From NCBI GenBank assembly GCA_903813345.2, contig CAIIXF020000012.1:2583318-2647317 (forward strand): a stretch of 64,000 nt of DNA, in the 5' to 3' direction. This document shows, in pieces, positions 5,488 to 60,825 of this stretch. A program made the translations under genes and the position numbers. Every line of letters starts with the position of its first letter. Position 1 is the stretch's first letter. Below the pieces are notes generated by a model. The model had not been told where the DNA came from, did not search any database, and was given only the letters and a program-made list of their open reading frames with translations. This DNA comes from Owenia fusiformis (taxonomy: Eukaryota; Annelida; Polychaeta; Sabellida; Oweniidae).

Positions 5488-8400
5488 ATGGCTAGAAAAG
5501 AATTGCTGCTACTCCAGATCATCCTGGTGGCTTTTCTGGCCCCAGGGGTGCAGCCTCAGCCTCTGACCCCAGAGGAGAGGACGCGTGTGGATGAGTTTAT
5601 GAGAGAGGTGAGGGAGTGCTCCAGCCACACAGGCATGATTGTAAGCATGGTGCGTGGGGGAGAGACTGTCTTCACAGGAGGTAGGTTCACTTTTCAACAG
5701 TATCCAGGGGGGAGGTTCAAACTTGGGGGAGAGACTGTCTTCACAGGAAGTAGGTTCACTTTTCAACAGTATCCAGGGGGGGGGAGGTTCAAACTTGACA
5801 ACCACAGGCCAAAATCACTTGAAAAATCCTCAAAATGGTGAAAAATGCATGATTTTGTAAAAAATTATTCAGGACCCTCGAACGCCCCAAATGGCTATGG
5901 TCTGGTGTCTAACCTTTAAGAAACATTTTTTTAGCTTATGGATTAGCAGTAGATAATGAGGGCACAGAGAATGACATCCCTGCTACTACTTCCACTGTGT
6001 TTCCTATAGCTTCCTGCTCTAAGCACTTCACAGGAACCATTATTGGACATGTCTTGCAGAACACCAAGTATGAAATATATTCAGAAATTAATAAATAAAC
6101 TAGATAACAGCAATACCAAGGTGTAATAAATCCCATTAATGAAAATAGCCAATGTCAACAAAATCTTTCTACTTTTCCAGTACAGTAAAAAATTTCATTT
6201 TCGAGATTCCTGCCAATTAGTCAAATTGTCATTAGACAGTAAATATGTTTCAAGTATTCACACATTTAAGAATAATATAATCGCTCCACTACCACTACTA
6301 TCCAGTTAAGTATAATAAAAATGTGAAATATCACGACGCATAATTAATAAAGTAGAACACCAATTTATAACACAATACACGTATAACATTAATCATTTAA
6401 CACATTAATTGTTGCTTATCAATGCAGCTACGACTGGGATACTCCAGTGCACCAAATACTGAGAGATCAGGGTGAGGATGTATATTTCATTGATATGCTA
6501 CGGACCAATGAGATGAGTCTGAGAGACCTGTTGGCCCACAGGCATGGTATACCAGGCCATGATGTCATCCTGGCAGCAAACACATTCAGCAGAGAGGAAC
6601 TCATGCAGTATGTACCACTTTTACACATGAAATGATAATCAATGCAAAACTAAAGTTTGTTCAACCCACTCATCTCTAAAATGGTATCACCCATAGGTCA
6701 AGGAACATGTATTGTATTTGACTTTAATTTGGCGATCATTTTTGGTGAGCATGTTTTTCGTTCAGTGCATTTTCAAGATGGCCCGGCCGTTTAAATTGAT
6801 AGAAACAAAAAGAAATATTGAAGAAATTGTTTATCAACAACACTGAAACTGAATTTTAAATTTTGTATGTACTTCTTGTGTACATGAAACTCAATCTAAA
6901 ATGGTATCACCTGTATGTTTCTTTTCACATTGGATTATGGTTTGGGATAGTTGGGGTTTGTTTTTCCTTATGACTGGTGTACACTTAGATAATTTATTTT
7001 TCTTGTTAGGTTCTGGAACAATTTTTGGTCCTTTTCCTTTGGAACTTGTGCGCTCATTCAAGGGAGAAACCTTTGCAGTTTTTAATTTACACATGTAATG
7101 ATATCTCTCTTACCTATCGCTTTTTTCAATTCACTTAGATGTTTTCTTTTTCTTGTTGGGTTCTGAAACATTTTTGGTCCTTTTCCTTTGGCACTTGTGC
7201 ATTCATTCAAGACAGAAACCTTTGCAGTTTTTTATTTACACATTTAATAATATCTTTGCTCTCAACAGACAACACTCACAGAATTCAAGAATCAATCTAA
7301 AATGATATCTATTTCATTAGAAACTTTTTCATTTGTCTCAACCAATCAAATCACATCTCTATTGTTCTTTATAACTCAAAAATGAATGACCTCAGGATTG
7401 TACCAGCTAGTCCAGTAAAAGTAAGAAAATAAGTTATTAACCTTGAATCATATACAAAAAGTCTACAAAAATGAAAGTTATGTGGTGGAATAAGGTTAAA
7501 ATTTGATTCAAATATACTCCCTACCATACCGACTAAAACTATTAATTTTTCCTTAAATCACTGTTACTTGTAGACGAATCCGCTTCCTGAAACCGACATC
7601 ACCAATAAGAAATAACTACGATTACAATAACATCCTCTATGGACTAGCAGCTTATGTTGTCGAGAAAATCTCTGGAAAAACATGGGACCAACTTCTCAAA
7701 GAAGAATTCTGGGATAAATTGGGGATGACCAGGACATCAACATTGTTGCTTGGGAATAGTACTGGCTATGATGGGTGGGCTAGAGGGCATGTGAGCCTCC
7801 TGGGAGAAAGCATCCTTGGACCACTGGACATGGCACGATTTGGGTGAGTTAACATTACAGGAGGCATTTTGGAATACTTTCTTGCTGTGTTTCTGTACCC
7901 ATTTTGATACCATCATATATATGTATGATGATGGAGATTATTCTTAGTCGATGAATCCGCTTGAAAAATCCTTGGTACGTCTCTGGAGTTGTTGGAGAAC
8001 TTGGATATGCATTGCGACAAGATATGCCACATTTCTTATAATAATAATGTACCAATGTACAAGAAAACAAGCATTAAAATATGCAAACTTGTTTAATAAA
8101 CTGTATTATAACTGAACCTATTCCCAATGTAGGATTTAATAAAAATGGGTCACGTCATGAAGCCGTTTTGTTGATTATAGAGGGGTTGCCCGTGGAGCTG
8201 CTGGTGCTGGGGGAGTAGCAATTACAGCAGAGGACTGGGGGCGCTGGATGAACTTCCAGATGCACAACATACAAGAAGAAATTACACATCCTCAGATCAT
8301 TGATGATGTCAGGAGTACTTCACAAATTACGAGGCGACTAGTGAGACGTGGCAGCACGAAGCCTGACAGACCATGGTTCAGGGGCAATGTAGGCTACGGA

Positions 8401-42000: not shown

Positions 42001-45000
42001 CAGTATATAATTAAGATATTTTGAAGAGAAGCTTGCAGTTGTGGAGTCAAAGGCACAGGAACAGGTGATGTTTTCAATGTTATATTAACCAGTATGTAAT
42101 TAAGCTATTTTGAAGAAAAGCTTGCAGTTGTGGAGTCAAAGGCACAGGAACAGGTGATGTTTTCAATGTTATATTAACCAGTATGTAATTAAGCTATTTT
42201 GAAGAGAAGCTTGCAGTTGTGGAGTCAAAGGCACAGGAACAGGTGAGGTTTTCAATGTTGTATTAACCAGTATGTAATTAAGCTATTTTGAAGAAAAGCT
42301 TGCAGTTGTGGAGTCAAAGGCACAAGAACAGGTTAGGTTTTCAATGTTATATTAACCAGTATGTAATTAAGCTATTTTGAAGAAAAGCTTGCAGTTGTGG
42401 AGTCAAAGGCACAAGAACAGGTGAGGTTTTCAATGTTGTATTAACCAGTATATAATTAAGCTATTTTGAAGAGAAGCTTGCAGTTGTGGAGTCAAAGGCA
42501 CAGGACGGGTTAGGTTTTGAAAGTTGTATTAACCAGTATGTAATTAAGCTATTTTGAAGAGAAGCTTGCAGTTGTGGAGTCAAAGGCACAGGAACAGGTT
42601 AGGTTTTGAAAGTTGTATTAACCAGTATGTAATTAAGCTATTTTGAAGAGAAGCTTGCAGTTGTGGAGTCAAAGGCACAAGAACAGGTTAGGTTTTCAAT
42701 GTTATATTAACCAGTATGTAATTAAGCTATTTTGAAGAAAAGCTTGCAGTTGTGGAGTCAAAGGCACAGGAACAGGTGATGTTTTGAAAGTTGTATTAAC
42801 CAGTATGTAATTAAGCTATTTTGAAGAAAAGCTTGCAGTTGTGGAGTCAAAGGCACAAGAACAGGTGAGGTTTTCAATGTTATATTAACCAGTATGTAAT
42901 TAAGCTATTTTGAAGAAAAGCTTGCAGTTGTGGAGTCAAAGGCACAGGAACATGTTAGGTTTTGAATGTTATATTAACCAGTATATAATTAAGATGTTTT
43001 GAAGAGAAGCTTGCAGTTGTGGAGTCAAAGGCACAGGAACTGGTTAGGTTTTCAATGTTGTATTAACCAGTATGTAATTAAGCTATTTTGAAGAGAAGCT
43101 TGCAGTTGTGGAGTCAAAGGCACAAGAACAGGTGATGTTTTCAATGTTATATTAACCAGTATATAATTAAGATATTTTGAAGAGAAGCTTGCAGTTGTGG
43201 AGTCAAAGGCACAAGAACAGGTGAGGTTTTCAATGTTATATTAACCAGTATATAATTAAGCTATTTTGAAGAGAAGCTTGCAGTTGTGGAGTCAAAGGCA
43301 CAGGACGGGTTAGGTTTTGAAAGTTGTATTAACCAGTATATAATTAAGATGTTTTGAAGAGAAGCTTGCAGTTGTGGAGTCAAAGGCACAGGAACAGGTG
43401 ATGTTTTGAAAGTTGTATTTACCAGTATATAATTAAGATATTTTGAAGAGAAGCTTGCAATTGTGGAGTCAAAGGCACAGGAACAGGTGATGTTTTGAAA
43501 GTTGTATTAACCAGTATATAATTAAGATATTTTGAAGAGAAGCTTGCAATTGTGGAGTCAAAGGCACAGGAACAGGTGAGGTTTTCAATGTTGTATTAAC
43601 CAGTATATAATTAAGATATTTTGAAGAGAAGCTTGCAGTTGTGGAGTCAAAGGCACAAGAACAGGTAAGGTTTTCAATGTTGTATTAACCAGTATATAAT
43701 TAAGATATTTTGAAGAGAAGCTTGCAGTTGTGGAGTCAAAGGCACAGGAACATGTTAGGTTTTCAATGTTGTATTAACCAGTATGTAATTAAGATATTTT
43801 GAAGAGAAGCTTGCAGTTGTGGAGTCAAAGGCACAAGAACAGGTTAGGTTTTCAATGTTGTATTAACCAGTATGTAATTAAGCTATTTTGAAGAAAAGCT
43901 TGCAGTTGTGGAGTCAAAGGCACAGGAACAGGTGAGGTTTTCAATGTTATATTAACCAGTATATAATTAAGCTATTTTGAAGAGAAGCTTGCAGTTGTGG
44001 AGTCAAAGGCACAGGACGGGTGAGGTTTTCAATGTTGTATTAACCAGTATATAACTAAGATATTTTGAAGAAAAGCTTGCAGTTGTGGAGTCAAAGGCAC
44101 AGGACGGGTGAGGTTTTCAATGTTGTATTAACCAGTATATAACTAAGATATTTTGAAGAAAAGCTTGCAATTGTGGAGTCAAAGGCACAAGAACAGGTTA
44201 GGTTTTGAAAGTTGTATTAACCAGTATGTAATTAAGCTATTTTGAAGAGAAGCTTGCAGTTGTGGAGTCAAAGGCACAGGAACAGGTTAGGTTTTGAAAG
44301 TTGTATTAACCAGTATATAATTAAGCTATTTTGAAGAGAAGCTTGCAGTTGTGGAGTCAAAGGCACAGGAACAGGTTAGGTTTTCAATGTTATATTAACC
44401 AGTATGTAATTAAGATATTTTGAAGAGAAGCTTGCAGTTGTGGAGTCAAAGGCACAGGAACAGGTTAGGTTTTGAAAGTTGTATTAACCAGTATATAATT
44501 AAGCTATTTTGAAGAGAAGCTTGCAGTTGTGGAGTCAAAGGCACAGGAACAGGTTAGGTTTTCAATGTTATATTAACTAAGTATATAATTAAGATATTTT
44601 GAAGAGAAGCTTGCAGTTGTGGAGTCAAAGGCACAAGAACAGGTGATGTTTTCAATGTTATATTAACCAGTATATAATTAAGATATTTTGAAGAAAAGCT
44701 TGCAGTTGTGGAGTCAAAGGCACAAGAACAGGTGATGTTTTCAATGTTATATTAACCAGTATGTAATTAAGATATTTTGAAGAGAAGCTTGCAGTTGTGG
44801 AGTCAAAGGCACAGGAACAGGTTAGGTTTTGAAAGTTGTATTAACCAGTATATAATTAAGCTATTTTGAAGAGAAGCTTGCAGTTGTGGAGTCAAAGGCA
44901 CAGGAACAGGTTAGGTTTTGAAAGTTGTATTAACCAGTATATAATTAAGATATTTTGAAGAGAAGCTTGCAGTTGTGGAGTCAAAGGCACAGGAACAGGT

Positions 45001-48000
45001 TAGGTTTTGAAAGTTGTATTAACCAGTATATAATTAAGCTATTTTGAAGAAAAGCTTGCAATTGTGGAGTCAAAGGCACAGGAACAGGTTAGGTTTTCAA
45101 TGTTGTATTAACCAGTATATAATTAAGATATTTTGAAGAGAAGCTTGCAATTGTGGAGTCAAAGGCACAAGAACAGGTGAGGTTTTCAATGTTATATTAA
45201 CCAGTATATAATTAAGCTATTTTGAAGAGAAGCTTGCAGTTGTGGAGTCAAAGGCACAGGAACAGGTTAGGTTTTCAATGTTATATTAACTAAGTATATA
45301 ATTAAGCTATTTTGAAGAAAAGCTTGCAGTTGTGGAGTCAAAGGCACAAGAACAGGTTAGGTTTTGAAAGTTGTATTAACCAGTATGTAATTAAGCTATT
45401 TTGAAGAGAAGCTTGCAGTTGTGGAGTCAAAGGCACAGGAACAGGTTAGGTTTTGAAAGTTGTATTAACCAGTATATAATTAAGCTATTTTGAAGAGAAG
45501 CTTGCAGTTGTGGAGTCAAAGGCACAGGAACAGGTTAGGTTTTCAATGTTGTATTAACCAGTATATAATTAAGATATTTTGAAGAGAAGCTTGCAGTTGT
45601 GGAGTCAAAGGCACAGGAAAAGGTTAGGTTTTCAATGTTATATTAACTAAGTATATAATTAAGATGTTTTGAAGAGAAGCTTGCAGTTGTGGAGTCAAAG
45701 GCACATGAACAGGTTAGGTTTTGAATGTTATATTAACCAGTATATAATTAAGATATTTTGAAGAGAAGCTTACAGTTGTGGAGTCAAAGGCACAGGAACA
45801 GGTGATGTTTTCAATGTTGTATTAACCAGTATATAATTAAGATATTTTGAAGAGAAGCTTGCAGTTGTGGAGTCAAAGGCACAGGAACAGGTTAGGTTTT
45901 GAAAGTTGTATTAACCAGTATGTAATTAAGCTATTTTGAAGAAAAGCTTGCAGTTGTGGAGTCAAAGGCACAAGAACAGGTTAGGTTTTCAATGTTGTAT
46001 TAACCAGTATGTAATTAAGATATTTTGAAGAGAAGCTTGCAGTTGTGGAGTCAAAGGCACAAGAACAGGTTAGGTTTTCAATGTTGTATTAACAAGTATG
46101 TAATTAAGCTATTTTGAAGAGAAGCTTGCAGTTGTGGAGTCAAAGGCACAAGAACAGGTTAGGTTTTCAATGTTGTATTAACCAGTATGTAATTAAGCTA
46201 TTTTGAAGAGAAGCTTGCAGTAGTGGAGTCAAAGGCACAGGAACAGGTGAGGTTTTCAATGTTGTATTAACCAGTATATAATTAAGATATTTTGAAGAGA
46301 AGCTTGCAGTTGTGGAGTCAAAGGCACAAGAACAGGTTAGGTTTTGAAAGTTGTATTAACCAGTATATAATTAAGATATTTTGAAGAGAAGCTTGCAGTT
46401 GTGGAGTCAAAGGCACAGGAACAGGTTAGGTTTTGAAAGTTGTATTAACCAGTATATAATTAAGCTATTTTGAAGAGAAGCTTGCAGTTGTGGAGTCAAA
46501 GGCACAAGAACAGGTTAGGTTTTGAAAGTTGTATTAACCAGTATATAATTAAGCTATTTTGAAGAGAAGCTTGCAGTTGTGGAGTCAAAGGCACAGGACG
46601 GGTTAGGTTTTGAAAGTTGTATTAACCAGTATATAATTAAGCTATTTTGAAGAGAAGCTTGCAGTTGTGGAGTCAAAGGCACAGGACGGGTTAGGTTTTG
46701 AAAGTTGTATTAACCAGTATATAATTAAGATATTTTGAAGAGAAGCTTGCAATTGTGGAGTCAAAGGCACAGGAACAGGTGAGGTTTTCAATGTTATATT
46801 AACCAGTATATAATTAAGATATTTTGAAGAAAAGCTTGCAGTTGTGGAGTCAAAGGCACAGGAACAGGTGAGGTTTTCAATGTTATATTAACCAGTATGT
46901 AATTAAGCTATTTTAAAGAAAAGCTTGCAGTTGTGGAGTCAAAGGCACAGGAACAGGTTAGGTTTTGAAAGTTGTATTAACCAGTATGTAATTAAGCTAT
47001 TTTGAAGAAAAGCTTGCAGTTGTGGAGTCAAAGGCACAAGAACAGGTGAGGTTTTCAATGTTGTATTAACCAGTATATAATTAAGATATTTTGAAGAGAA
47101 GCTTGCAGTAGTGGAGTCAAAGGCACAGGAACAGGTGAGGTTTTCAATGTTGTATTAACCAGTATGTAATTAAGCTATTTTGAAGAAAAGCTTGCAGTTG
47201 TGGAGTCAAAGGCACAGGAACAGGTGATGTTTTGAATGTTATATTAACCAGTATGTAATTAAGATATTTTGAAGAAAAGTTTGCAGTTGTGGAGTCAAAG
47301 GCACAAGAACAGGTGAGGTTTTCAATGTTATATTAACCAGTATATAATTAAGCTATTTTGAAGAGAAGCTTGCAGTTGTGGAGTCAAAGGCACAGGAACA
47401 GGTTAGGTTTTGAAAGTTGTATTAACCAGTATATAATTAAGATATTTTGAAGAAAAGCTTGCAGTTGTGGAGTCAAAGGCACAGGAACATGTTAGGTTTT
47501 CAATGTTATATTAACCAGTATATAATTAAGATGTTTTGAAGAGAAGCTTGCAGTTGTGGAGTCAAAGGCACAGGAACAGGTGAGGTTTTCAATGTTATAT
47601 TAACCAGTATATAATTAAGATATTTTGAAGAAAAGCTTGCAGTTGTGGAGTCAAAGGCACAGGACAGGTTAGGTTTTCAATGTTATATTAACCAGTATAT
47701 AATTAAGATGTTTTGAAGAGAAGCTTGCAGTTGTGGAGTCAAAGGCACAGGAACAGGTGATGTTTTCAATGTTATATTAACCAGTATGTAATTAAGATAT
47801 TTTGAAGAAAAGCTTGCAGTTGTGGAGTCAAAGGCACAAGAACAGGTTAGGTTTTGAAAGTTGTATTAACCAGTATATAATTAAGATATTTTGAAGAGAA
47901 GCTTGCAATTGTGGAGTCAAAGGCACAAGAACAGGTGAGGTTTTCAATGTTATATTAACCAGTATATAATTAAGCTATTTTGAAGAGAAGCTTGCAGTTG

Positions 48001-51000
48001 TGGAGTCAAAGGCACAGGAACAGGTTAGGTTTTGAAAGTTGTATTAACCAGTATGTAATTAAGCTATTTTGAAGAGAAGCTTGCAGTTGTGGAGTCAAAG
48101 GCACAGGAACATGTTAGGTTTTGAATGTTATATTAACCAGTATATAATTAAGATATTTTGAAGAAAAGCTTGCAGTTGTGGAGTCAAAGGCACAGGAACA
48201 GGTGAGGTTTTCAATGTTATATTAACCAGTATGTAATTAAGCTATTTTGAAGAGAAGCTTGCAGTTGTGGAGTCAAAGGCACAGGAACAGGTTAGATTTT
48301 GAAAGTTATATTAACCAGTATATAATTAAGATATTTTGAAGAAAAGCTTGCAGTTGTGGAGTCAAAGGCACAGGAACAGGTGAGGTTTTCAATGTTATAT
48401 TAACCAGTATATAATTAAGATATTTTGAAGAAAAGCTTGCAGTTGTGGAGTCAAAGGCACAGGAACAGGTGAGGTTTTCAATGTTATATTAACCAGTATG
48501 TAATTAAGCTATTTTGAAGAGAAGCTTGCAGTTGTGGAGTCAAAGGCACAAGAACAGGTTAGATTTTGAAAGTTATATTAACCAGTATATAATTAAGCTA
48601 TTTTGAAGAGAAGCTTGCAGTTGTGGAGTCAAAGGCACAGGAACAGGTGAGGTTTTCAATGTTATATTAACCAGTATATAATTAAGATATTTTGAAGAAA
48701 AGCTTGCAGTTGTGGAGTCAAAGGCACAGGAACAGGTTAGGTTTTGAAAGTTATATTAACCAGTATGTAATTAAGCTATTTTGAAGAAAAGCTTGCAGTT
48801 TTGGAGTCAAAGGCACAGGAACAGGTGAGGTTTTGAAAGTTATATTAACCAGTATGTAATTAAGCTATTTTGAAGAGAAGCTTGCAGTTGTGGAGTCAAA
48901 GGCACAAGAACAGGTTAGGTTTTGAAAGTTATATTAACCAGTATGTAATTAAGCTATTTTGAAGAGAAGCTTGCAGTTGTGGAGTCAAAGGCACAAGAAC
49001 AGGTTAGATTTTGAAAGTTATATTAACCAGTATGTAATTAAGCTATTTTGAAGAGAAGCTTGCAGTTGTGGAGTCAAAGGCACAGGAACAGGTGAGGTTT
49101 TCAATGTTATATTAACCAGTATATAATTAAGATATTTTGAAGAGAAGCTTGCAGTTGTGGAGTCAAAGGCACAGGAACAGGTGAGGTTTTGAAAGTTATA
49201 TTAACCAGTATGTAATTAAGCTATTTTGAAGAGAAGCTTGCAGTTGTGGAGTCAAAGGCACAGGAACAGGTGAGGTTTTGAAAGTTATATTAACCAGTAT
49301 ATAATTAAGATATTTTGAAGAAAAGCTTGCAGTTGTGGAGTCAAAGGCACAGGAACAGGTGAGGTTTTGAAAGTTATATTAACCAGTATATAATTAAGCT
49401 ATTTTGAAGAGAAGCTTGCAGTTGTGGAGTCAAAGGCACAGGAACAGGTGATGTTTTCAATGTTATATTAACCAGTATATAATTAAGATATTTTGAAGAG
49501 AAGCTTGCAGTTGTGGAGTCAAAGGCACAAGAACAGGTGAGGTTTTGAAAGTTGTATTAACCAGTATATAATTAAGCTATTTTGAAGAGAAGCTTGCAAT
49601 TGTGGAGTCAAAGGCACAGGAACAGGTGAGGTTTTCAATGTTATATTAACCAGTATATAATTAAGCTATTTTGAAGAGAAGCTTGCAGTTGTGGAGTCAA
49701 AGGCACAGGAACAGGTGATGTTTTCAATGTTATATTTACCAGTATGTAATTAAGCTATTTTGAAGAAAGCTTACAGTTGTGGAGTCAAAGGCACAGGAAC
49801 AGGTTAGGTTTTGAAAGTTGTATTAACCAGTATGTAATTAAGCTATTTTGAAGAGAAGCTTGCAGTTGTGGAGTCAAAGGCACAGGAACAGGTGAGGTTT
49901 TGAAAGTTATATTAACCAGTATATAATTAAGATATTTTGAAGAGAAGCTTGCAGTTGTGGAGTCAAAGGCACAAGAACAGGTGAGGTTTTGAAAGTTATA
50001 TTAACCAGTATGTAATTAAGATATTTTGAAGAAAAGCTTGCAGTTGTGGAGTCAAAGGCACAGGAACAGGTGAGGTTTTCAATGTTATATTAACCAGTAT
50101 GTAATTAAGCTATTTTGAAGAGAAGCTTGCAGTTGTGGAGTCAAAGGCACAGGAACAGGTTAGATTTTGAAAGTTATATTAACCAGTATATAATTAAGAT
50201 ATTTTGAAGAAAAGCTTGCAGTTGTGGAGTCAAAGGCACAAGAACAGGTTAGATTTTGAAAGTTATATTAACCAGTATATAATTAAGCTATTTTGAAGAG
50301 AAGCTTGCAGTTGTGGAGTCAAAGGCACAAGAACAGGTTAGATTTTGAAAGTTATATTAACCAGTATGTAATTAAGCTATTTTGAAGAGAAGCTTGCAGT
50401 TGTGGAGTCAAAGGCACAGGAACAGGTGAGGTTTTCAATGTTATATCAACCAGTCAATTTGTAATGTATTTTCAGTTGGAGGATATCCTTTATCCTAGAT
50501 TTGAACCTTTGAGGCTTTCTCTTTGATATATATGGATTGATGTTTTTTTTACTTCAGGAATTTCTATTTGTGATATTTAGGGTAATAGTTGTTTTATGAT
50601 TCTTGGTAAAAGTGTTAATTTGTTAGACACTCATTGGGTAGTGTTTTTTGAATTTTTGGTACCTTGAATAACTAATCTAGTCAAGCTGATATTATAGAGC
50701 TTTTATTTTGGTAGCTTTTCCATCTATTAATCAAAACCATCATTCTCGAAAATGGTAAAATATGCCTGGAATATTATAGTTCAACAAGTTAAACCCAATT
50801 TCCAGCTTAATTTATTATCCTTGCAATACATTCATGTTAGTGAACTTTGGATGGGTCCAATATCCCTCTGTAATATTGGGCTACGTAAGAAATGTCAGAT
50901 AATAAATAAGACCCAGACCGAAGGTTTGATTTGTTGAACTAGGAATATTATTGCATTCACTTCATAAATTTGATAGGTTCCCTGAGTCTGTTAGAGACCA

Positions 51001-54000
51001 TTAGTTTTGACCCTGAATGTTTTTATTATTGATTAATACTTATGGATTAAAACTTAATCAAGATTTTTTAAAAATAAACTTAAAGTGTCTCACATATTCG
51101 ATCAAAACTTGCCATGCAAACATGTTAGTCTACTTTACTGGCCCCCCTTGCTGTAACAAGGAACCCAAAACACATTAAAACGTTAACATAAACCAATTAG
51201 TCACTTCACTATGAAAGTGAGGGGTGCATGGACTAACACAATATCAGTGGTCATTCACTGTAATCAACTTAGTAACCCTTGCATATCGTGCTCACTCAAG
51301 TATTGAATAATTTTTTTATGATCTAAATGTTTGGGGTTTATAAAAAAATGTGATATATTTTAGTTAGAAATACATTAATTAATATATTCATTCAAACAGC
51401 ACTAGAATGCGGGAAGAAAGAGCAATGGTGACAAAATGCAGACAGGATTTTCCGTAAGGGTTTCAAACATTTCTGAACACAATTATACATGTACTTCATG
51501 TGTACTGTTATTTTTAGTGCTGTATTTATAGATATAATTTCACGTATTAAAATCATATTTTCCAGCAATGACTTCAAATTCGGAACCACACCCATATCAC
51601 ATTTTCTTCAATAACTCCAAACATGTGTAAACATTGACCATGTGCATATAAATTCAGATTTCACGAGCTCTTTCCTATTAGAGTACCTCAAACACCCCTG
51701 CGTGGATTTGAGTTGGATTCGCCTTTTATACGTGAGCCGACACACTCGCAAACGCTGATTGGATAAAGATTGCAAGAATCTTTAAGTCAACATTTTTGTA
51801 AATCAATATTTGAAAAATTCTTCATGTACTTGTTTGTAATATATATTAATTGTTCTGTATATATTATAAACTAATATGTATGAAATGAAAACTTAATATT
51901 TTCAGCATTAATGAGTAAATATCAAATCAAATTAGGTTGTGCTAAGGAGCCACAGTGTGGCTGTTTTCATTTATCTTTGGCTCTCTGATTACATGAACTT
52001 GTATAGGTTTAGCTAGTGACAAGAAACAACATACCATAATGCACATCTTATTATTCTCAGAATATTTGTATTTCAACCTTATTCAAGTATTGGATGCTGA
52101 CATATTGATCTATATGCAGTTGCAGGATTTTGTGAAATCCAATCAAAATAATGTGCAATACTTCCATGATTAGCATCATACAATGCCATTGCTGTATAAG
52201 AGTTAGGATATCCTGGTATCCACTTAGTGAAGTTGAAAGGTTCCCCAGTTGTTTGCCACTCCCATGTTGTACCATCTCTCATTTTGTTTCCACTTGTCCA
52301 ATATCCCCAATACTGTCCAGCCGGTACCCTGAGATCTAGGAATTAGTATTGAGAGGGTCAAAAACAAATGTTTATCTAGAATACATTATGGATGCAATGT
52401 ACCGTAATTGGAATTTTTGTTGGCATGAATGAATTAAATGATTTCAAGTGTTTTAAATCTAGATTGTTTGTATGAAAATGACTTATATGAAATATAAATA
52501 TTTATGTGTTTTGGAGTTGGCTCAGATCACTAGATATTCATACAGTTAAATCTATCTCGTAAGTGATGTATAGATGGCACAAGTGCAAAGGTGAGTTAAT
52601 TTACATAGATCATGTGACAAGGTTGAAATGTCACGTGACTACAACTGGCGGGAATCAGTTTGCGAGGTTTTATTGGCAGGGGTTTAGTTCCAAATATTAC
52701 TGAACTTTATAATTATATAGTACGTTGTGATAAATGGAGTCATATCACTGGAACATTTATTTAACCATACTTGTATCTGTTCCAAGATATCCCACAAAAA
52801 CTTCCTGTTCTTCATAGCTCTCTACTGTTACCAGTCCAAACCCAAAATATGATTGACAGAAATCTGTAGCTTCTTGCCATGATTTGGTTGTTGTCACAAA
52901 CATATAGCACGTGTCATTCCTGTGTATGCCTTTTAGGAAACCAGCGAAGCAGTCTTCTGATTCTCCTGAAAATAAGAAAAGTAATTTATAAGGCTGTAAT
53001 AAGATCTTATCAATTGATATTTCAAATCTTAAATATGATTCATGTACATTGTAATTTTAAGTTCATATTTTATCAGATGTATATGGATTGTAGACGTCAC
53101 AACCAAGAATTTGTGGCAACATCATGTTTCATACTTGGTATATGTAGCTACTATACTGATAATAGAAAGGCCAGGTGCAAAAGTTGTTTTCTTTAAACTA
53201 CTGATTACTGAATTTGATAACTATTGGTGCCAGTGTTCAATGTCAGTAACAAAGTGTTACACTTTTGTTAATTGCAACCATATGGTGACATGTTAATGCC
53301 TAATAATGTTTCCAGGTAATGTAAATAAATCTTGAAAAAAGAATAAGTAGTACTCTCAAAATGTTGTGAATGATTGAGCCCAATGATAATAGCCATTAAA
53401 TTTAGGTTTAATCTGGTAAGCATGTATTGTATAAGGATGTGTATAATAATCCCCTGATGATTTTATGCCTTCCTTATAGAATCCTTCAGAAAGGCTGGTT
53501 GCTCATTACTAATAGATAAGACATTTTAATTTTGAAAACTTAAAAATGCATGTACATGTATACAATAATATGTTAGGTAAGCCATTTTATCTTTTGAAAG
53601 AATTTATACATAATTTATACATAATTTATACATAATAATCTTACTGAAGAGAGCTGATGGTTTGTTATACACCTCCACATATTCATCTCCCCATTTTATC
53701 TTAGCAACATAGTTTGCCACATCACTTGCACCAAGGAATGCAGAACAGCTCAGTAGGACCACCAGGATGGAGAGTTGTAGAGTCATCTTCATTGTTTCTC
53801 AATATGTTACATAAATGGTTAATTCAGATTTATATAATATATTTGTGACTTAGATTGTTATATGTTGCCTTGTTTTTATCAGATAAAGACTTTATTTATG
53901 AGCATTTATGACCACCATGTTATTTTTGAGTCTCTACCCTGCTGTAGTTTCCCATGCTTAGTTTCTTTTCTAAAGATCTACCACCGACTAAATGAGAAAA

Positions 54001-57000
54001 TTCACAACAATGAAGAAAACAATTTTTTGAATAGTGAACAAATCAGCACAAAATCAGGGCAGCTACATATTTTTGCTTAGTTAGAATATTATATTAAAAT
54101 CATAAACTAGGCTGTCTTCAAGTCAAGTCAAGCTCAATGAAGACCATAGAAGAATATACTCAACTGTATCATTGCTGTATTTTCAGTGTACTGAGTTAGA
54201 GTCAAGGTCAAGAAGACCATAGAAGAATATACTCAACTGTATCATTGCTGTATTTTCAGTGTACTGAGTTAGAGTCAAGGTCAATGACGACCATAGAAGA
54301 ATATACTCAACTGTATCATTTCTGTATTTTCAGTGTACTGAGTTAGAGTCAAGGTCAAGAAGACCATAGAAGAATATACTCAACTGTATCATTGCTGTAT
54401 TTTCAGTGTACTGAGTTAGAGTCAAGGTCAAGAAGACCATAGAAGAATATACTCAACTGTATCATTGCTGTATTTTCAGTGTACTGAGTTAGAGTCAAGG
54501 TCAATGACGACCATAGAAGAATATACTCAACTGTATCATTTCTGTATTTTCAGTGTACTGAGTTAGAGTCAAGGTCAAGAAGACCATAGAAGAATATACT
54601 CAACTGTATCATTGCTGTATTTTCAGTGTACTGAGTTAGAGTCAAGGTCAAGAAGACCATAGAAGAATATACTCAACTGTATCATTGCTGTATTTTCAGT
54701 GTACTGAGTTAGAGTCAAGGTCAAGAAGACCATAGAAGAATATACTCAACTGTATCATTGCTGTATTTTCAGTGTACTGAGTTAGAGTCAAGGTCAATGA
54801 AGACCATAGAAGAATATACTCAACTGTATCATTGCTGTATTTTCAGTGTACTGAGTTAGAGTCAAGGTCAAGAAGACCATAGAAGAATATACTCAACTGT
54901 ATCATTGCTGTATTTTCAGTGTACTGAGTTAGAGTCAAGGTCAATGAAGACCATTGAAGAATATACTCAACTGTATCATTGCTGTATTTTCAGTGTACTG
55001 AGTTAGAGTCAAGGTCAAGAAGACCATAGAAGAATATACTCAACTGTATCATTGCTGTATTTTCAGTGTACTGAGTTAGAGTCAAGGTCATTGACGACCA
55101 TAGAAGAATATACTCAACTGTATCATTTCTGTATTTTCAGTGTACTGAGTTAGAGTCAAGGTCATTGAAGACCATAGAAGAATATATTCAACTGTATCAT
55201 TTCTGTATTTTCAGTGTACTGAGTTAGAGTCAAGGTCAATGAAGACCAAAGAAGAATATACTCAACTGTATCATTTCTGTATTTTCAGTGTACTGAGTTA
55301 GAGTCAAGGTCAATGAAGACCAAAGAAGAATATACTCAACTGTATCATTTCTGTATTTTCAGTGTACTGAGTTAGAGTCAAGGTCAATGAAGACCAAAGA
55401 AGAATATACTCAACTGTATCATTTCTGTATTTTCAGTGTACTGAGTTAGAGTCAAGGTCAATGAAGACCAAGAAGAATATACTCAACTGTATAATTTCTG
55501 TATTTTCAGTTTATTGAGTTAGAGTCAAGGTCAATGAAGACCAAAGAAGAATATACTCAACTGTATCATTTCTGTATTTTCAATGTACTGAGTTAGAGTC
55601 AAGGTCAATGAAGACCAAGAAGAATATACTCAACTGTATAATTTCTGTATTTTCAGTTTATTGAGTTAGAGTCAAGGTCAATGAAGACCAAAGAAGAATA
55701 TACTCAACTGTATCATATTTCTGTATTTTCGGTGAACTGAGTTAAAGTCAAGTTCTGAGTTCTAAAGACACATCCCTTGGGAGTTTTCAATTATCCTGTT
55801 CTCTCTGATTACATGAACCTGAATTGGTTTTTTTGGCAATGGATTAAGCAAAGAATGTCTCAATATTTTCAGAATATTATTTTTTATTTCAAAACCTTAT
55901 TCAAATATTGGGTGCTGACATATTGATCTGTGCGCAGTTGCTGGAGGATGTGAAACCCAATCAAAATACCATGCATAGTTTCCACTATTATCATCAAACA
56001 ATACCATTACTGTATTAGAGTCGGGATGCCCTGGTATCCACTTTGTGAAGTTGAAAGGTTCTCCAGTAGTTTGCCACTCCCATGTCGTACCATCTCTCAT
56101 TTTGTTTCCACTTGTCCAATATCCCCCGCGCTGTCCAGCCGGTACCCTGAGATCTAGGAATTAGTATTGAGAGGGTCAAAAACGAATGTTTAATAAAGTT
56201 CTATTATGATAATATCTAGAATACATTATGGATGCAATGTACTGTAATTGGAATTTTTGTTGGCATTTTTGTTGGCTAGAATTAAATGATTTCAAGTGTT
56301 TTAAATCTAGATTGTTTGTATGAAAATGATATGAAATATAAATAATTATGTGTTTTGGAGTTGACTCAGATCACTAGATATTCATACAGTTAAATATATC
56401 TCGTAAGTGATGTATAGATGGCAGAAGTACATAGGTGAGTTAATTTACATAGATCATGTGATAAGGTTGAAATGTCACGGGACTACAACTTGCGAGAATC
56501 AGTTTGTGAGGTTTTATTGGCAGGGGTTTAGTTCCAAATATCACTGAAACATTTATTGAACCATACTTATATCTGTTCCAAGATGTCCCACAAATACTTC
56601 CTGTTCTTCATAGCTCTCAACTGTTACCAGTCCAAACCCAAAATATGATTGACAGAAATCTGTAGCATCTTGCCATGATTTGGTTATTGTTACAAACATG
56701 TAGCATGTGTCATTTCTGTGTATGCCTTTTAGAAAACCAGCGAAGCAGTCTTCTGATTCTCCTGAAAATAAGAAAAGTGATTTATAAGGCTGTAATATGA
56801 TTTTATCAATTGATATTTCAAATCTTAAATATGATTCATGTACATTGTAATTTTAAGTTCATATTTTATCAGATGTATATGGATTGTAGACGTCACAACC
56901 AAGAATTTGTGGCAACATCATGTTTCATACTTGGTATATGCAGCTACTTTACTGATAATAGAAAGGCCAGGTGCAACAGTTGTTTTCTTTAAACTAGTCT

Positions 57001-60000
57001 ACTGATTACTGAATTTGATAACTATTGTTGTGTTCAATATCAGTAACAAAGTGTTACACTTTTGTTAATTGCAACCACACTGGTGATCCACTCGATTACG
57101 CTGGTTACCAAAACGGTTCGTGAACCACATGGTGACATGTTAATGCCTAATAATGTTACCAGGTAATGTAAATAAATCTTGAAAATACAATAAGTAGTAC
57201 TCTCAAAATGTTGTGAATGATTGAGCCCAATGATAATAGCCATTGAATTTAGGTTTAATCTGGTAAGCATGTATTGTATAAGGATGTGTATAATAATTCC
57301 CTGGTGATTTTATGCCAGAAAGGCTGGTTGCTCATAACTAATAGATAAGACATTTTAATTTTGAAAACTTAAAAATGCATGTATATGTATACAATAATAT
57401 GTTAGGTAAGCTATTTTATCTTTTGAAAGAATTTATACATAATAATCTTACTGAAGAGAGCTGATGGTTTGTTATACACCTCCACATACTCATCTCCCCA
57501 TTGTATCTTAGAAACATAGTTTGCCACATCACTTGCACCAATCAGTGTGATGAAGCTCAGCAGAACTATCAAAATGCAGAGTTGCAGAGCCATTTTGCTG
57601 TTTTTCAATATGGAGCACCAATGGTAAATGGTGATTCAGATTTATATAATATATTTGTAACATTAGATTGTAATATGTTGCCTTGTTTTTATCAGATAGG
57701 CCTAAAGACTTTATTTATGACTTCCGACAATTTATGACCACCATGTTATTTTTGAGTCTCTACCCTGCTGTAGTTTCCCATGCTTAGTTTGTTTTCTAAA
57801 GATCTACCAAAGACTAAATGAGTAGATTTACCACAATGAAGAAAATGATTTTTTGAATAGTGAACAAATCAGCACAAAATCAGGGCAGCTACATATTTTT
57901 GTTCGTTAGATTATTCTATTAAAATCATAAACTAGGCTGTCTTCAAGTCAAGTCATGATCAATGAAGGCCATAGAAGAATATACTCAACTGTATCATTTC
58001 TGTATTTTCAGTGTACTGAGTTAGAGTCAAGGTGAATAAAGACTATAGAAGAATATACTCAATTGTATCATTTCTGTGTTTTTAGTGTACTGAGTTAGAG
58101 TCAAGGTGAATAAAGACTATAGAAGAATATACTCAAATGTATCATTTCTGTGCTTTCAGTGTACTGAGTTAGAGTCAAGGTGAATAAAGACTATAGAAGA
58201 GTATAGTCAATTGTATCATTTCTGTGTTTTTAGTGTACTGAGTTAGAGTCAAGGTCAATAAAGACTATAGAAGAATATACTCACATATATCATTTCTGTA
58301 TTTTCAGTGTACTGAGTTAGAGTCAAGGTCAATGAAGGCCATAGAAGAATATACTCATCTGTATCATTTCTGTATTTTCAGTGTACTGAGTTAGAGTCAA
58401 GGTCATTGAAGACCATAGAAGAATATACTAAACTGTATCATTTCTGTATTTTCAGTGTACTGAGTTAGAGTCAAGGTGAATAAAGACTATAGAAGAATAT
58501 ACTCAATTGTATCATTTCTGTGTTTTTAGTGTACTGAGTTAGAGTCAAGGTGAATAAAGACTATAGAAGAATATACTCAAATGTATCATTTCTGTGCTTT
58601 CAGTGTACTGAGTTAGAGTCAAGGTGAATAAAGACTATAGAAGAGTATACTCAATCGTATCATTTCTGTGTTTTTAGTGTACTGAGTTAGAGTCAAGGTC
58701 AATGAAGACCATAGAAGAATATACTCAAATGTATCATTTATGTGCTTTCAGTGTACTGAGTTAGAGTCAAGGTCAATGAAGACCATAGACGAATATACTC
58801 AACTTGAGAAGAAACTAACTGATGTAACAAAGGAGAAACAAGCACATGAAAAGAAGGCAGTGCAGGTAAATGAAATGGAAAATAAAAGAAGTTGATAACC
58901 AAATGTGTCGTTTTAATTCAGACATTAGACAGCCAGATGTTTATAGACAGGCATCATCCATTGAATATACAAGTACAAAAAGTTTCTTTTTTCTAACTTC
59001 TTGAACCTGATTGTACCTGTTACATGCACACATGCATTGGTGTGTAGTGTAAGTTCACAAAGTTGCAAATTGTTATCAAACCACTAATTTTGTGTTCACT
59101 TTTTATTTATAAACATAATATATGAAATGAGTTCTTCATTCTGTTGTGAGTGGAAAGAATGGGCTTTGTAAAAGTGCAAAATACCTCCCCTTGTATTATG
59201 ACATGTTACAATAACAAAAAGGAAAAGTTGTTATTGTTCATACATTATATCGAATCGCGGAACTAACCACTTGTTACCAGTTTGAATAATGATTAACCAG
59301 AATAAACAACTTTATTTTCAGTTATCTATAAAAGTTGCCAAACTAACAAAAGAGTTAAAAGAGGAGAGAGAAATGAATCAATGCTTACGGGAGAACCAGA
59401 AAGACTGGGTGAAACGAGTAGAAGAACTGGAAACAAAGTTTAACCATTCCATAGCCTCTAAAGACAAGGTATAAAGAATTGAATATAATCATTTTAACTC
59501 ATTTCATTACATCATTTTAGGATCTGCATATTAATAAGGCAGTTTTTTGTTTAACATAGTCCTTTTAGATACATGCAGTTTTAAATCTTAGACTATTTCA
59601 GAATGTAAATATTACCACAATATTAAATTATTTCATCATTGTCCCTAACCTCGTTTTAAGTGGCAGAAAATTTCAGAAAACATACTCTATCACAACAGTA
59701 AATTATTTTTGTTTAATAAAATCTCTTTATGTAGTCTAAAGTTACAGAATATTTCAGAATACAGATTGCAAAATTGCCACAACACTAAAAAAATATTTTT
59801 GTTTTACATTATATTTTACATAGTTTTAAGCACATAATATGTACAGTATATCAGAATACACCACAACACTTATCTATTTTTGTGTCACATAAATAAAAGT
59901 GCTATCTCTTATAACATGATCTCTCATTACAGAAAGATCTTTTTGATATTATAAGGTGGTCTTATATGTACTGGATCCCTCTAAACCTGTTTTCATACTA

Positions 60001-60825
60001 ATTTTCTTGGAGCTCCAAGATGTTCAGGAACAATTGAGAGATGTCATGTTCTCTATAGAGGCGCAACAGAAACTTTCAAAAATGTAATGAATCATTCTTA
60101 ACCCATTTTATACTTGATTTCTAGGAGCTCCAAGATGTCCAGGAACAATTGAGGGATGTCATGTTCTACATAGAGGCGCAGCAGAAACTTTCAAAAACAA
60201 CAGAGGTAAGAAACCATTTATCTCAATTGTTTTGGTTTTGTAAAATGAGCACCAGTCTTGGTCCGTACTTGCCTTGTCACTATGACACACACTTGCCCCC
60301 TTGCTATTAATCTTAATTGTTATGTCACTACCAAAAGTGGTGACATTTTGTTATAGAGACTCCTAGTCAACTTTTTGTTGGTATTTGGCATTTGGTGTTC
60401 AGCGATCAGTGGTCCATGTCTGTAACAAATGGCAGGTGGTGACATGTTAATACCTGTGTGTCTTGTCACACTTGCACCAGTCTTGTACCACCCTTGCCTT
60501 GTTACCACATGAAATAATCATTAATAGTCTTTATTGTTCAGCTGGGTATCTTTCAATGGAAAAAATTGTGATCATAATGGCTGAAAACTTGTTTCTTGCT
60601 TTAATATTTACACAAGCTCTGTAGTGTATCCACAATTTTAGTAACACATTTCCACAATATTCCTGTTTTTAAACTTGAAAAGTTTATCTTTATTATTGTT
60701 TACGTCATTCTGTATTTTCATACTTCCAGGTATCCCAGGCTGAGATACAGGGTGGTCACGTGATAGTTGGAGAGGCAGCATCAAAACCTGCAGACAGGAA
60801 AAAAGGACGAACAAAGAAAAGATGA
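18075..60825 (+). CDS. BRAP: BRCA1-associated protein (BRAP2/IMP), RING-type E3 ligase
   Basis: Coding exons: 18075-18153, 18458-18625, 19421-19831, 20122-20371, 20921-21031, 21379-21457, 21908-22021, 22398-22463, 23009-23091, 24823-24898, 25206-25273, 26277-26460, 30979-31068, 58752-58865, 59322-59468, 60125-60205 and 60730-60825. The total is 2217 nt, 738 aa, with every phase closing. The start is supported by the N terminus [13 protein letters not shown], which matches vertebrate BRAP. Domains in order: BRAP2 (RRM-like) about 285-400 ([32 protein letters not shown]); RING from C419 ([26 protein letters not shown]); ZnF-UBP about 460-540 ([39 protein letters not shown]); coiled coil about 560-705; basic tail (KKGRTKKR). 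Known role: cytoplasmic Ras-responsive E3 ligase that retains NLS proteins and restrains KSR/MAPK scaffolding. It is longer than human BRAP (592 aa) because of a larger N-terminal region encoded by exons 3-4. Introns 9, 12 and 13 are heavily invaded by repeats. Confidence 0.95.
18765..19222. mobile_element. Non-autonomous hAT-like element in BRAP intron 2
   Basis: 442-bp element (18773-19214) flanked by a perfect 8-bp duplication, ctgcatta, at 18765-18772 and 19215-19222, the length typical of hAT insertions. The ends start TAGTGTTGTCGCGATG and, inverted, TAGCGATTAATCGATAC. Both sides carry repeated acatcgatgcatcg motifs that can fold. No transposase. Confidence 0.8.
20414..20485. repeat. 24-bp tandem repeat, three copies
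   Basis: Three near-identical copies of ccattttaatgccaccacaa plus tttt, with a 24-bp period (starts 20415, 20439, 20463), shortly after the exon 4 donor. Confidence 0.9.
21172..21345 (+). pseudogene. Two decayed copies of the BRAP exon 6 acceptor and 5' half
   Basis: True exon 6 starts after tttcag at 21379 with TCCTGGGATAGAGCATATGA. Upstream, tttgcag|TCCAGGTATTGACACATGAA (from about 21177) and tttccag|TCCAGAACATATGAAGGTACG (from about 21277) repeat the acceptor plus the first ~45 nt in degraded form, about 100 bp apart. The second copy itself contains an internal repeat of 'ggtacgagacacca'. In frame, the first copy meets a stop (TGA after GGTATTGACACA) and has lost exon function. Confidence 0.6.
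22493..22684. mobile_element. TTAA-flanked MITE (piggyBac-type) in BRAP intron 8
   Basis: 184-bp element with ends CCTCTTGA and TCAAGAGG, bounded by TTAA on both sides. TTAA target duplication is characteristic of piggyBac-like transposition. The interior repeats 'gagtgacgaga' and has no coding capacity. Confidence 0.7.
23030..23375 (+). repeat. Four-copy tandem array of the BRAP exon 9 / intron 9 donor junction
   Basis: The RING-encoding 3' part of exon 9, its donor and the first ~30 nt of intron 9 are repeated. The motif ggagatacaa occurs at 23081 (true exon), 23172, 23260 and 23348 (as ggagatataa), giving periods of 91, 88 and 88 bp. Copies 3 and 4 are almost identical to each other and still encode [16 protein letters not shown] in one frame. 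Copy 2 is the most diverged. Donors read AAG|GTAGGT in copies 1-2 and AAG|GTGGGT in copies 3-4. Confidence 0.9.
23684..23805. repeat. ~20/40-bp minisatellite in BRAP intron 9
   Basis: Alternating 'tatcaccctatattt' and 'tatcactctgtattt' units, about seven in all. The open frame through it is a by-product of the repeat. Confidence 0.75.
24226..24389. mobile_element. MITE, copy 3 (TIR CAGTAAAtCTGTC, TA flanks)
   Basis: 160-bp third member of the family at 13674 and 15874, from CAGTAAATCTGTC at 24228 to ACAGGTTTTACTG ending at 24387, with TA on each side. It lies in BRAP intron 9. Confidence 0.75.
25303..25848. mobile_element. 536-bp foldback transposon with 5-bp target duplication
   Basis: Near-perfect inverted repeat whose arms (25308 onward and back from 25843) are each more than 200 nt, closing around 25570-25600. 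It begins CACTGGTGATCCACTCG and ends with the complement. Both sides carry AACTT (25303-25307 and 25844-25848). The short open frames in the two arms are mirror images and do not encode a transposase. It lies in BRAP intron 11. Confidence 0.85.
26050..26250. repeat. Degenerate 'catatttccagtatat' repeat before BRAP exon 12
   Basis: About ten diverged 16-20-bp units containing atttccag, each resembling a splice acceptor. At 26051, ttccagtcatttcaaaga closely matches the true exon 12 acceptor region ttccag|TCATTTCCAAGA at 26271, so one unit may be a copy of that junction. Similar units recur at 26740-26885 and 30935-30978. Confidence 0.6.
26480..26606. repeat. Interspersed 'gtggtgacat' repeat, copy A
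   Basis: About 130 bp, shared with 60318-60450. Both contain tgacat-ttgttatag, ggcatttgg, and ctgtaacaaatggcaggtgg followed by tgacat. The family is unknown. Confidence 0.6.
26892..27200. repeat. 15-16-bp minisatellite, forward orientation
   Basis: About 20 units of the type gacatttcaccccctg / gacgtttcacccctta. The same unit in inverted orientation makes up 30703-30925, so the two arrays bracket the mariner element. Confidence 0.9.
27489..27500. promoter_or_regulatory. CTCF core-motif match
   Basis: CCACCAGGTGGC fits the CTCF core CCASYAGRKGGC at all 12 positions. It lies in BRAP intron 12 between the two inverted minisatellites. A single match of this kind can occur by chance. Confidence 0.3.
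27758..29722. mobile_element. Mariner-family transposon with long terminal inverted repeats
   Basis: 1961-bp element (27760-29720) flanked by TA at 27758-27759 and 29721-29722. The terminal inverted repeats begin CAGGGTGATCCAGAAGTAAC and extend about 190 bp, through gtaacccgatatcgcgtaac. That is long for mariner. The element carries one transposase gene (next entry) and lies in BRAP intron 12, in the same direction as BRAP. Confidence 0.95.
28182..29416 (+). pseudogene. Mariner transposase, frameshifted
   Basis: DD34D transposase. The N-terminal part has a helix-turn-helix (residues about 60-110, with GRPVS and SYGTVQRIL). The first catalytic Asp is in TSDES. After the break come WDNAPTHT with the second Asp and [10 protein letters not shown] with the third Asp, exactly 34 residues later. 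A one-nucleotide frame change lies around 28731-28740, just after the WKHDN segment, so the reading frame is broken. A GTAAGA...TTTTCAG interval (28877-29047, 171 bp) interrupts the second half and behaves as an intron, since coding similarity resumes in frame at 29048. The element is therefore probably inactive in this copy. Confidence 0.85.
30256..30640. mobile_element. 385-bp terminal-inverted-repeat element with internal tandem halves
   Basis: Ends ACGATTCTCGGTTTGGAGAAC and its complement (30620-30640). The interior consists of two diverged direct copies of about 190-215 bp sharing 'agcgttatccctgcttc'-like, 'gatttaaatgtcctcttttg'-like and 'taatttgggt-atatttcta' segments. No coding capacity. 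Confidence 0.65.
30703..30925. repeat. 15-16-bp minisatellite, inverted orientation
   Basis: About 14 units of gaaatgtctagggggt / gaaacgtccagggggt, the reverse complement of the array at 26892-27200. It ends about 55 bp before BRAP exon 13. Confidence 0.9.
31021..50455 (+). repeat. ~215-copy, 89-bp satellite made from the BRAP exon 13 / intron 13 donor junction
   Basis: The unit is 48-49 nt of the exon 13 end (TATTTTGAAGARAAGCTTGC to GCACARGAACAG), then the donor and about 40 nt of intron (ggttttcaatgttatatt, aaccagtatataattaag). The period of 89 bp was read directly from successive units (gaagcttgca at 31121, 31210, 31299 and 31388). The copy number is array length minus one insertion, divided by 89. 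The first unit is the genuine exon end at 31021-31068. Each unit contains an AG before TATTTTGAA and a CAG|GT donor, so it has the layout of a tiny exon. Variants affect chiefly donor position +3 and nearby (GTTAGG, GTGAGG, GTGATG, a few GTAAGG), occasionally -1 (CAT|GT), and a one-base-shorter caggacggg class. Reading on from exon 13 meets a stop within the intron part, and 89 is not a multiple of three, so the array is not translated as a repeat protein. Confidence 0.97.
39279..39594. mobile_element. ~316-bp insertion inside the 89-bp satellite
   Basis: The only foreign sequence I see in the array. It contains an inverted repeat (gttatgtcactatgacgtg and its complement near 39367-39395) enclosing about 55 nt, then about 190 bp of unique sequence with 'gggctatatcggggtaatc'. 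The array resumes at aaccagtatg. It is not repeated elsewhere in the satellite. Confidence 0.8.
50456..51974. other. BRAP intron 13 unique segment
   Basis: About 1.5 kb of AT-rich unique DNA between the satellite and the first lectin segment. No exon, RNA gene or mobile-element ends recognised. The open frame at 50752-50937 shows no family features. Confidence 0.6.
52079..53792 (-). CDS. Secreted C-type lectin-like protein 1 (nested in BRAP intron 13)
   Basis: Minus-strand exons 53792-53645, 52965-52771 and 52335-52079 give 199 aa plus stop in one frame. The signal peptide is [19 protein letters not shown]. The C-type lectin-like domain begins at EDC in exon 2, with CYMF and WQEATDFC, and ends with [20 protein letters not shown] is the typical strand before the ligand loop. 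The usual Ca2+/sugar motifs are absent: the EPN/QPD position reads YPN, and no WND follows (FDWIS). Only one cysteine lies in exon 3, so the loop disulfide is missing. I infer a secreted, probably calcium-independent CTLD protein; its ligand is unknown. It resembles the perlucin-type small lectins of molluscs. It runs antisense to BRAP. Confidence 0.85.
53828..53837 (-). promoter_or_regulatory. TATA box of lectin gene 1
   Basis: On the minus strand the sequence reads ATTATATAAATC about 35-45 bp upstream of the ATG at 53792. The same element and spacing are kept in lectin gene 2. Confidence 0.55.
54112..55745 (+). repeat. ~22-copy array of the BRAP exon 14 acceptor junction (block A)
   Basis: The 73-74-bp unit joins about 52 nt of the exon 14 start (TGTACTGAGTTAGAGTCAAGG to AATATACTCAACT) to a 21-nt pyrimidine-rich acceptor tract (gtatcatttctgtattttcag). 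Starts were read at 54187, 54260, 54334 and onward. Sub-families differ by caagaag/caatgaag (one base) and by gctgtatt/tctgtatt. The true exon has ATAGACGAATA where nearly all units have ATAGAAGAATA. Every unit keeps TTTTCAG, apart from one TTTTCAA and one TTTTCGG near the distal end. Confidence 0.96.
55897..57608 (-). CDS. Secreted C-type lectin-like protein 2 (tandem copy)
   Basis: Exons 57608-57452, 56761-56567 and 56153-55897 give 202 aa plus stop. Same architecture and splice phases as lectin 1. The signal peptide is [20 protein letters not shown]; a second in-frame Met at 57593 (MALQ) may be the real start, since it aligns with copy 1's second Met (MTLQ). Exon 2 is nearly identical to copy 1. 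Exon 3 differs most in the ligand-loop region ([19 protein letters not shown] against [19 protein letters not shown]). The loop motif reads HPD instead of QPD, WND is absent, and the loop cysteine is missing. Intact and probably expressed; function unknown. Confidence 0.85.
57078..57122. mobile_element. 45-bp mini-insertion related to the 536-bp foldback element
   Basis: Sequence CACTGGTGATCCACTCGATT onward to ACGGTTCGTG matches the first 43 or so nt of the 25308 element. It is bounded by AACCA at 57073-57077 and 57123-57127. The paralogous intron of lectin 1 has a single AACCA and no insert, so this is an empty/filled site pair. Confidence 0.85.
57641..57650 (-). promoter_or_regulatory. TATA box of lectin gene 2
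   Basis: ATTATATAAATC on the minus strand, about 35-45 bp before the start at 57608, conserved with lectin gene 1. Confidence 0.55.
57952..58751 (+). repeat. ~10-copy array of the BRAP exon 14 acceptor junction (block B), ending at the true exon
   Basis: Same 73-74-bp unit as block A but more diverged: 'gtgaataaagactatag' replaces 'gtcaatgaagaccatag' in many units, and acceptors read tttttag or ctttcag. The last unit is the functional exon 14 at 58752, which alone continues into CTTGAGAAGAAACTAAC. Confidence 0.93.
58866..59321. other. BRAP intron 14
   Basis: 456-bp intron, GTAAAT to TTTTCAG. No element recognised. Confidence 0.6.
60010..60084 (+). pseudogene. Dead upstream copy of BRAP exon 16
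   Basis: GAGCTCCAAGATGTTCAGGA through AAACTTTCAAAAATG copies exon 16 (60125-60205), 115 bp upstream, with few changes. The acceptor position reads tttcttg instead of tttctag, so the AG is lost. The 3' end runs into TAA where the true exon has ACAACAGAG|GT. The true exon's upstream pyrimidine tract is also copied (about 59985-60009). Confidence 0.85.
60318..60455. repeat. Interspersed 'gtggtgacat' repeat, copy B
   Basis: Second copy of the repeat at 26480-26606, in BRAP intron 16. It shares gtggtgacattttgttatag and ctgtaacaaatggcaggtgg. Confidence 0.6.

Follow-up and report, generated by a model that had tools for sequence, protein, structure and literature searches.

Intron 13 of the BRAP gene of the annelid Owenia fusiformis carries an independent minisatellite at each of its ends, one that repeats the splice donor of exon 13 in 215 copies and one that repeats the splice acceptor of exon 14 in 33 copies, and in each array only the copy nearest its own exon keeps the reading frame open across the intron. 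The gene lies in a stretch of 64 kb (G000:C12:2583318-2647317; called the window below, and the reference for all coordinates except those of kinesin loci) of an O. fusiformis assembly that represents one haplotype in 498 Mb and 525 contigs. The acceptor array is probably a mirage, that is, a minisatellite which spans an exon-intron junction; it would have been neutral in its founding and would be ignored by splicing. An earlier note on this DNA had argued that independent arrays at both ends of one intron are no meaningless coincidence and point to the splice sites, and on this we concur.

The identity of the host gene is clear. Its joined exons match the Pfam families BRAP2, zf-RING and zf-UBP, and in a protein search a 572-residue query was 100% identical to the deposited 738-residue BRCA1-associated protein of O. 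fusiformis. Exon 1 begins with an ATG at position 18075, in agreement with the start of the deposited protein, and when exons are counted from there the numbers 13 and 14 used in the earlier note are correct. The features of intron 13 and its flanks are the following.

30979..31068, plus strand: BRAP exon 13, with the donor (31068/31069) that is the only donor copy leaving the frame open
31018..50472, plus strand: donor array, 89-bp unit composed of 48 exonic nt (exon 13) and 41 intronic nt
31021..31026, plus strand: TATTTT in exon 13 at the start of the first donor unit, with the same six bases after the last unit (50467-50472)
39284..39595, no strand assigned: insertion of about 0.3 kb inside the donor array; a 36-nt inverted repeat lies towards one of its ends
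51963..54125 (limits approximate), minus strand: segment with C-type lectin-like gene copy 1, directly upstream of acceptor block 1 (Pfam Lectin_C, E 9.7e-5 on hand-joined open reading frames)
54126..55755, plus strand: distal block (block 1) of the acceptor array, with 22 acceptors in units of 73-74 bp (76 in one case), a degenerate edge copy at 55733 included
55783..57950 (limits approximate), minus strand: segment that holds copy 2 of the C-type lectin-like gene and lies within intron 13 between the array blocks (alignment; Pfam Lectin_C, E 2.1e-5 on hand-joined open reading frames)
57951..58804, plus strand: proximal block (block 2) of the acceptor array, a 74-bp unit in 11 copies, the final one of which is the working acceptor of exon 14
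58752..58865, plus strand: BRAP exon 14, whose acceptor is the only copy leaving the frame open and which matches the deposited protein

Two unrelated arrays at the ends of intron 13

No tandem repeat of the window is longer than the donor array, which has 217.9 copies according to Tandem Repeats Finder (TRF), or 215 when counted by an anchor. A mean pairwise divergence of 6.5% was obtained from an alignment of 214 copies, in which the copy preceding the 0.3-kb insertion was left out. The occurrence of TATTTT at both ends of the array suggests a founding by microhomology-mediated tandem duplication, and these six bases are likely to be the microhomology of that duplication, an event which we infer from the present sequence. 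The insertion is a unique marker and as such useful for checking the assembly.

The acceptor unit of 73-74 bp consists of 22 nt of the 3' end of the intron (for example tgtatcatttctgtattttcag) followed by the first 52 nt of exon 14, just as had been described earlier, and the 33 copies found, with the working exon 14 acceptor included, are close to the roughly 32 that had been claimed. However, they do not form the single array that had been proposed, as they are distributed over two blocks, 54126-55755 and 57951-58804, about 2.2 kb apart. Both blocks are far above chance, with a TRF score of 2928 and 96% match for block 1 and of 1363 and 92% match for block 2. The mean unit divergence amounts to 7.4% inside block 1 (the degenerate edge copy at 55733 being counted), to 7.9% inside block 2 and to 11.1% between the two blocks. 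Which of the arrays expanded first cannot be read from unit divergence, as the values for the donor array (6.5%) and for the acceptor blocks (7.4% and 7.9%) are too close.

Donor and acceptor units have nothing recognisable in common, and here the earlier note was accurate. The best local match between them comprises 10 bases, and its alignment score was equalled in 55% of 500 shuffles; a common ancestry of the two units is ruled out by this score at shuffle level. In the whole assembly, at least 34 matches to the acceptor unit were obtained, 34/34 of them within the acceptor array (two of two candidates scored), and at least 93 to the donor unit, 93/93 of them within the donor array (one of two candidates scored). 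A dispersed satellite, one of two findings that the earlier note had named as speaking against its proposal, was thus not encountered among the best candidates scored, and there is next to no chance that a satellite or transposable element landed in intron 13, given also that BRAP's own exon is present in each unit.

Long near-identical arrays are difficult to assemble, and one might suspect that repeats were over-expanded or misjoined. Such an artefact is very improbable, since variants are ordered among the units, a unique insertion lies within the donor array and loci on several chromosome-sized contigs show the pattern again.

The division of the acceptor array is due to a segment with a lectin-like gene. 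The two lectin segments are paralogous, with 84-94% identity over four aligned pieces, and an identical junction sequence joins each of them to the acceptor array. As both segments meet the array through the same sequence, the array predates a tandem duplication of the lectin gene together with the array, and an identity of 84-94% between the segments is compatible with a block duplication after the array had formed.

A simple course of events may be proposed. The acceptor minisatellite would have been founded by a short tandem duplication that by chance included the exon-intron junction, and it would then have grown and been homogenised by unequal exchange, a presumed step, or by slippage. 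The donor array would have had a separate origin by the same route. Later, a tandem duplication comprising the lectin gene and the start of the acceptor array would have left the acceptor array in two blocks. Exon 13 would today be spliced from the first of 215 donors to the last of 33 acceptors, and as the outermost copies are the ones joined, every other copy would leave with the intron.

Reading frames across the predicted joints

When exon 13 was joined to each of the 33 acceptors, the frame remained open for the last one (58752) only, and the rest led to a premature stop. Similarly, when each of the 215 donors was joined to exon 14, only the first (31068) left the frame open and the other 214 led to a premature stop. 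In both arrays the frame-keeping copy is the one nearest its own exon. The deposited protein is 100% identical over the exon 13-14 joint that results when the two outermost copies are used, and the D of KTIDEYTQ, which is encoded by the last acceptor copy only, is present in it. According to the accessible parts of the O. fusiformis genome paper, RNA-seq was used for the gene models (PMC9977687), and the deposited BRAP protein may be one of them. Judged from the predicted joints, splicing of BRAP would use only the outermost donor and acceptor copies.

Junction arrays elsewhere in the window and in kinesin genes

Intron 13 is not alone in this respect. Considering unit separations of 40-600 bp and the 48 splice junctions of BRAP and of a neighbouring beta-lactamase-like gene, 15 clusters of local duplications were obtained in the window, six of which span at least one splice junction when 1.45 would be expected (P 0.0017), a figure that is biased because the window was chosen for its arrays. 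In this count, acceptor block 1 was entered as a separate non-junction cluster. The six junction clusters concern the exon 1 donor and the whole of exon 6 in the beta-lactamase-like gene and, in BRAP, the donors of exons 9 and 13 and the acceptors of exons 14 and 16; the exon 6 acceptor of BRAP, with its decayed copies, is a case additional to these six. Frequent arrays of this kind away from junctions would have spoken against a link with splice sites, and non-junction duplications do exist, as the remaining 9/15 clusters demonstrate.

5655..5797, plus strand: two-copy 69-bp duplication across the donor of exon 1 in the beta-lactamase-like gene
21150..21306, plus strand: acceptor region of BRAP exon 6 in two decayed copies (50/67 and 50/65 identical; the second is weak when compared with shuffles, 35 versus a maximum of 31)
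23030..23384, plus strand: donor array of BRAP exon 9 (RING exon, 23009-23091), an 88-bp unit in about 4 copies
59984..60082, plus strand: duplicate of the acceptor region and the greater part of BRAP exon 16 (87/99 identical; without AG at its start)

The duplicated exon 6 of the beta-lactamase-like gene comprises both flanks (8621-8880 and 8924-9183; 207/260 identical) and is possibly a mutually exclusive exon pair.

For a sample outside the window, kinesin genes were used. A family search gave at least 144 matches (122 of 218 candidates scored), and 26 loci with a total of 222 kb were examined for arrays with a period of at least 50 bp, at least 3 copies and 90% match. Eleven arrays were found in seven loci, and 19/26 loci were without one. 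In an automated test, which is blind to exons outside the kinesin profile and hence works with an incomplete exon annotation, 5/11 arrays have an edge in a profile-matched exon core when 1.84 would be expected (P 0.02). Read by eye from the sequence, 10/11 arrays contain a splice junction. Seven appear to be of the acceptor type (L011, L014, L016, L026 at 4458-4836, and L036 at 1-437, 5382-5700 and 7687-8865) and three of the donor type (L020, L030, and L036 at 2772-3706). In the junction arrays the edge copy on the exon side runs on into the exon, which in the case of L036 1-437 was seen after adding the adjoining stretch. The eleventh array, L026 3613-3872, has its end no more than about 8 bases away from an acceptor AG.

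One kinesin intron of L036 resembles BRAP intron 13. Following an exon that ends in AAGGATTATCAGAG, this intron opens with a 39-bp unit that starts with GTAAGG and is repeated about 34 times, and directly after this array come 5.3 copies of a 145-bp unit with the acceptor of the next exon, the last copy of which enters the exon, leaving an intron that is almost wholly junction array. As this intron is amplified at both ends, the paired amplification of donor and acceptor recurs in the O. fusiformis genome. Four of the 11 long-unit kinesin arrays lie in this one gene, and such arrays may cluster in certain genes. Also, the donor of the next exon in this kinesin gene (L045 with L036, reverse strand 2545-2651 of the joined stretch) carries a 46-bp repeat in 2.3 copies.

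When all local duplications are considered, exon cores are not enriched, with 5/61 cores in the first 20 kinesin loci versus 14% of control intervals. Of 18 kinesin matches that are copies of one L011 array, a single one (a distal copy) had been entered, and with the working copy instead the values are still 5/61 and 5/11. An enrichment in arrays but not among all local duplications indicates that the bias concerns multi-copy arrays and not duplications generally. In eight phosphatase loci, which total 27.7 kb and include an overlapping pair, no such array was found, a control that is weak because four of these loci lie in open frames of more than 860 codons.

Two explanations of this bias may be considered, and each has perhaps a one-in-three standing in our judgement. 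On the one hand, a mutational or recombinational process might target splice junctions, for example through breakage linked to transcription, R-loops or splicing, and duplications would start there. The kinesin arrays at junctions, by eye and in the automated test, and the excess among window clusters are in agreement with such targeting, as are the accumulation of arrays in L036 and its intron composed of little else; the unfavoured exon cores among all local duplications and, as a weak control, the phosphatase loci without arrays argue against it. On the other hand, founding may be random and arrays that contain exon sequence may have the advantage in persistence and growth, since such sequence differs little between haplotypes and would aid unequal exchange. 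Such persistence would reconcile unenriched local duplications with enriched multi-copy arrays, and it is in line with the less diverse exonic half of the donor array, but exonic and intronic halves of the acceptor array are about equally diverse.

The earlier note had also suggested a process acting on the splice sites of intron 13. The link with splice sites stands, whereas the restriction to this intron does not, as other BRAP exons, the beta-lactamase-like gene and 7/26 kinesin loci are alike. A process tied to junctions throughout the genome is likelier than selection on intron 13.

Probable neutral mirages and their relation to known systems

Several observations weigh against a mirage that was neutral in its founding and is ignored by splicing. 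GT is kept in 214/215 donors and AG in 31/33 acceptors (one of the others has AA and one GG), and some use of internal sites is conceivable. The sequence GTGAGG or GTAAGG is found in 59 donor copies and GTTAGG in the working donor; the former two are nearer to the usual donor consensus. In the donor copies, nucleotide diversity (pi) is 0.032 in the exonic half versus 0.088 in the intronic half, which a purely neutral array would not predict, although acceptor copies hardly show it, with 0.073 for the exonic and 0.081 for the intronic half. At the left end of the acceptor array, which was replaced by a lectin segment, the founding event is unreadable. Finally, random neutral founding alone does not account for the location of 10/11 kinesin arrays on junctions.

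The retained dinucleotides, together with the 59 donor copies that seem stronger than the working one, would fit a selection for redundant or decoy splice sites, which might for example tune unproductive splicing of BRAP and which the earlier note had considered. We regard such selection as improbable and its proposal as not supported. Homogenisation explains the identity of the copies, all other copies lead to premature stops, the exonic half of the acceptor copies is hardly more conserved than the intronic one (the donor halves do differ) and unrelated genes carry arrays of this kind too. An acceptor array of neutral founding, passed over by the splicing machinery, therefore continues to be the reading that we prefer for exon 14.

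Repeated splice sites are known from a human gene. The minisatellite of human 6-16 (IFI6) supplies multiple splice donors that are used as alternative sites. Repeated donors at one exon end are also present in BRAP, whereas its 214 other donors lead to a premature stop when joined to exon 14.

A closer parallel is found in lancelets. As described in the accessible parts of two reports, lancelet mirages are tandem repeats across exon-intron boundaries in globin genes (BflGb6, BflGb9), Adh3, troponin C and PGBD5; either boundary can be affected, regular splicing is reported, copy number varies from 2 to 7 and the length in Adh3 is 10-72 bp (PMC3087553, PMC3902484). Like these, the O. fusiformis units hold the exon-intron boundary, and both 5' and 3' boundaries are amplified (in BRAP at exons 13 and 14, in kinesin genes as read by eye); as far as sequence structure defines the term, the O. 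fusiformis arrays are mirages. In contrast to the lancelet cases described in those parts, the host is an annelid, copy numbers reach 215 and 33 where lancelets have at most 7, both ends of one intron are affected in two genes (BRAP intron 13 and a kinesin intron), and several gene families are involved in one genome.

Intron gain was proposed as an outcome of mirages in the mirage-to-intron model, as outlined in the accessible part of PMC3087553. Intron gain by tandem genomic duplication, as presented in the accessible part of PMC4974935, likewise duplicates a segment with splice signals within a gene, but in O. fusiformis existing junctions multiply and the intron grows, and no new exon or intron position was seen. 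Tentatively, and with less than even confidence, we suggest that a process preferring splice junctions across the genome of O. fusiformis multiplies donors and acceptors to the point where entire introns are made up of junction arrays. This would be convergent with lancelets and would amount to intron growth, possibly intron creation, with a spliceosome that takes the exon-proximal copy among hundreds.

In the searchable literature, which leaves most subscription journals outside and whose matches were listed in part, no report of junction arrays beyond lancelets, annelids included, was recognised. Junction arrays are not mentioned in the accessible parts of the Owenia genome paper (PMC9977687), and for an earthworm metallothionein gene repeats in the first intron and duplications of exon 4 are reported which, in the accessible part of that paper, are not described as junction arrays (PMC12783039). 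Mirages, hitherto found in a few lancelet genes, would now extend to several annelid gene families, with up to hundreds of copies and with both ends of single introns affected. The O. fusiformis arrays put the choice of the spliceosome between numerous near-identical sites to a natural test. They also allow the origin of junction-bound duplications, and the growth of introns by tandem duplication, to be counted directly in a genome that is assembled to chromosome level and for which RNA data are published.

Some further features of the window were noted. BRAP intron 12 contains a transposon-like element (27752-29728) with inverted ends of 197 nt that are 98% complementary and with a transposase-like reading frame that, by eye, may be mariner-like. 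The same intron has a 16-bp minisatellite towards either end, near exon 12 and near exon 13, and the orientation differs between the two places (26890-27199 and 30702-30930). A gene on the minus strand (14200-17440) may resemble quinolinate phosphoribosyltransferase.

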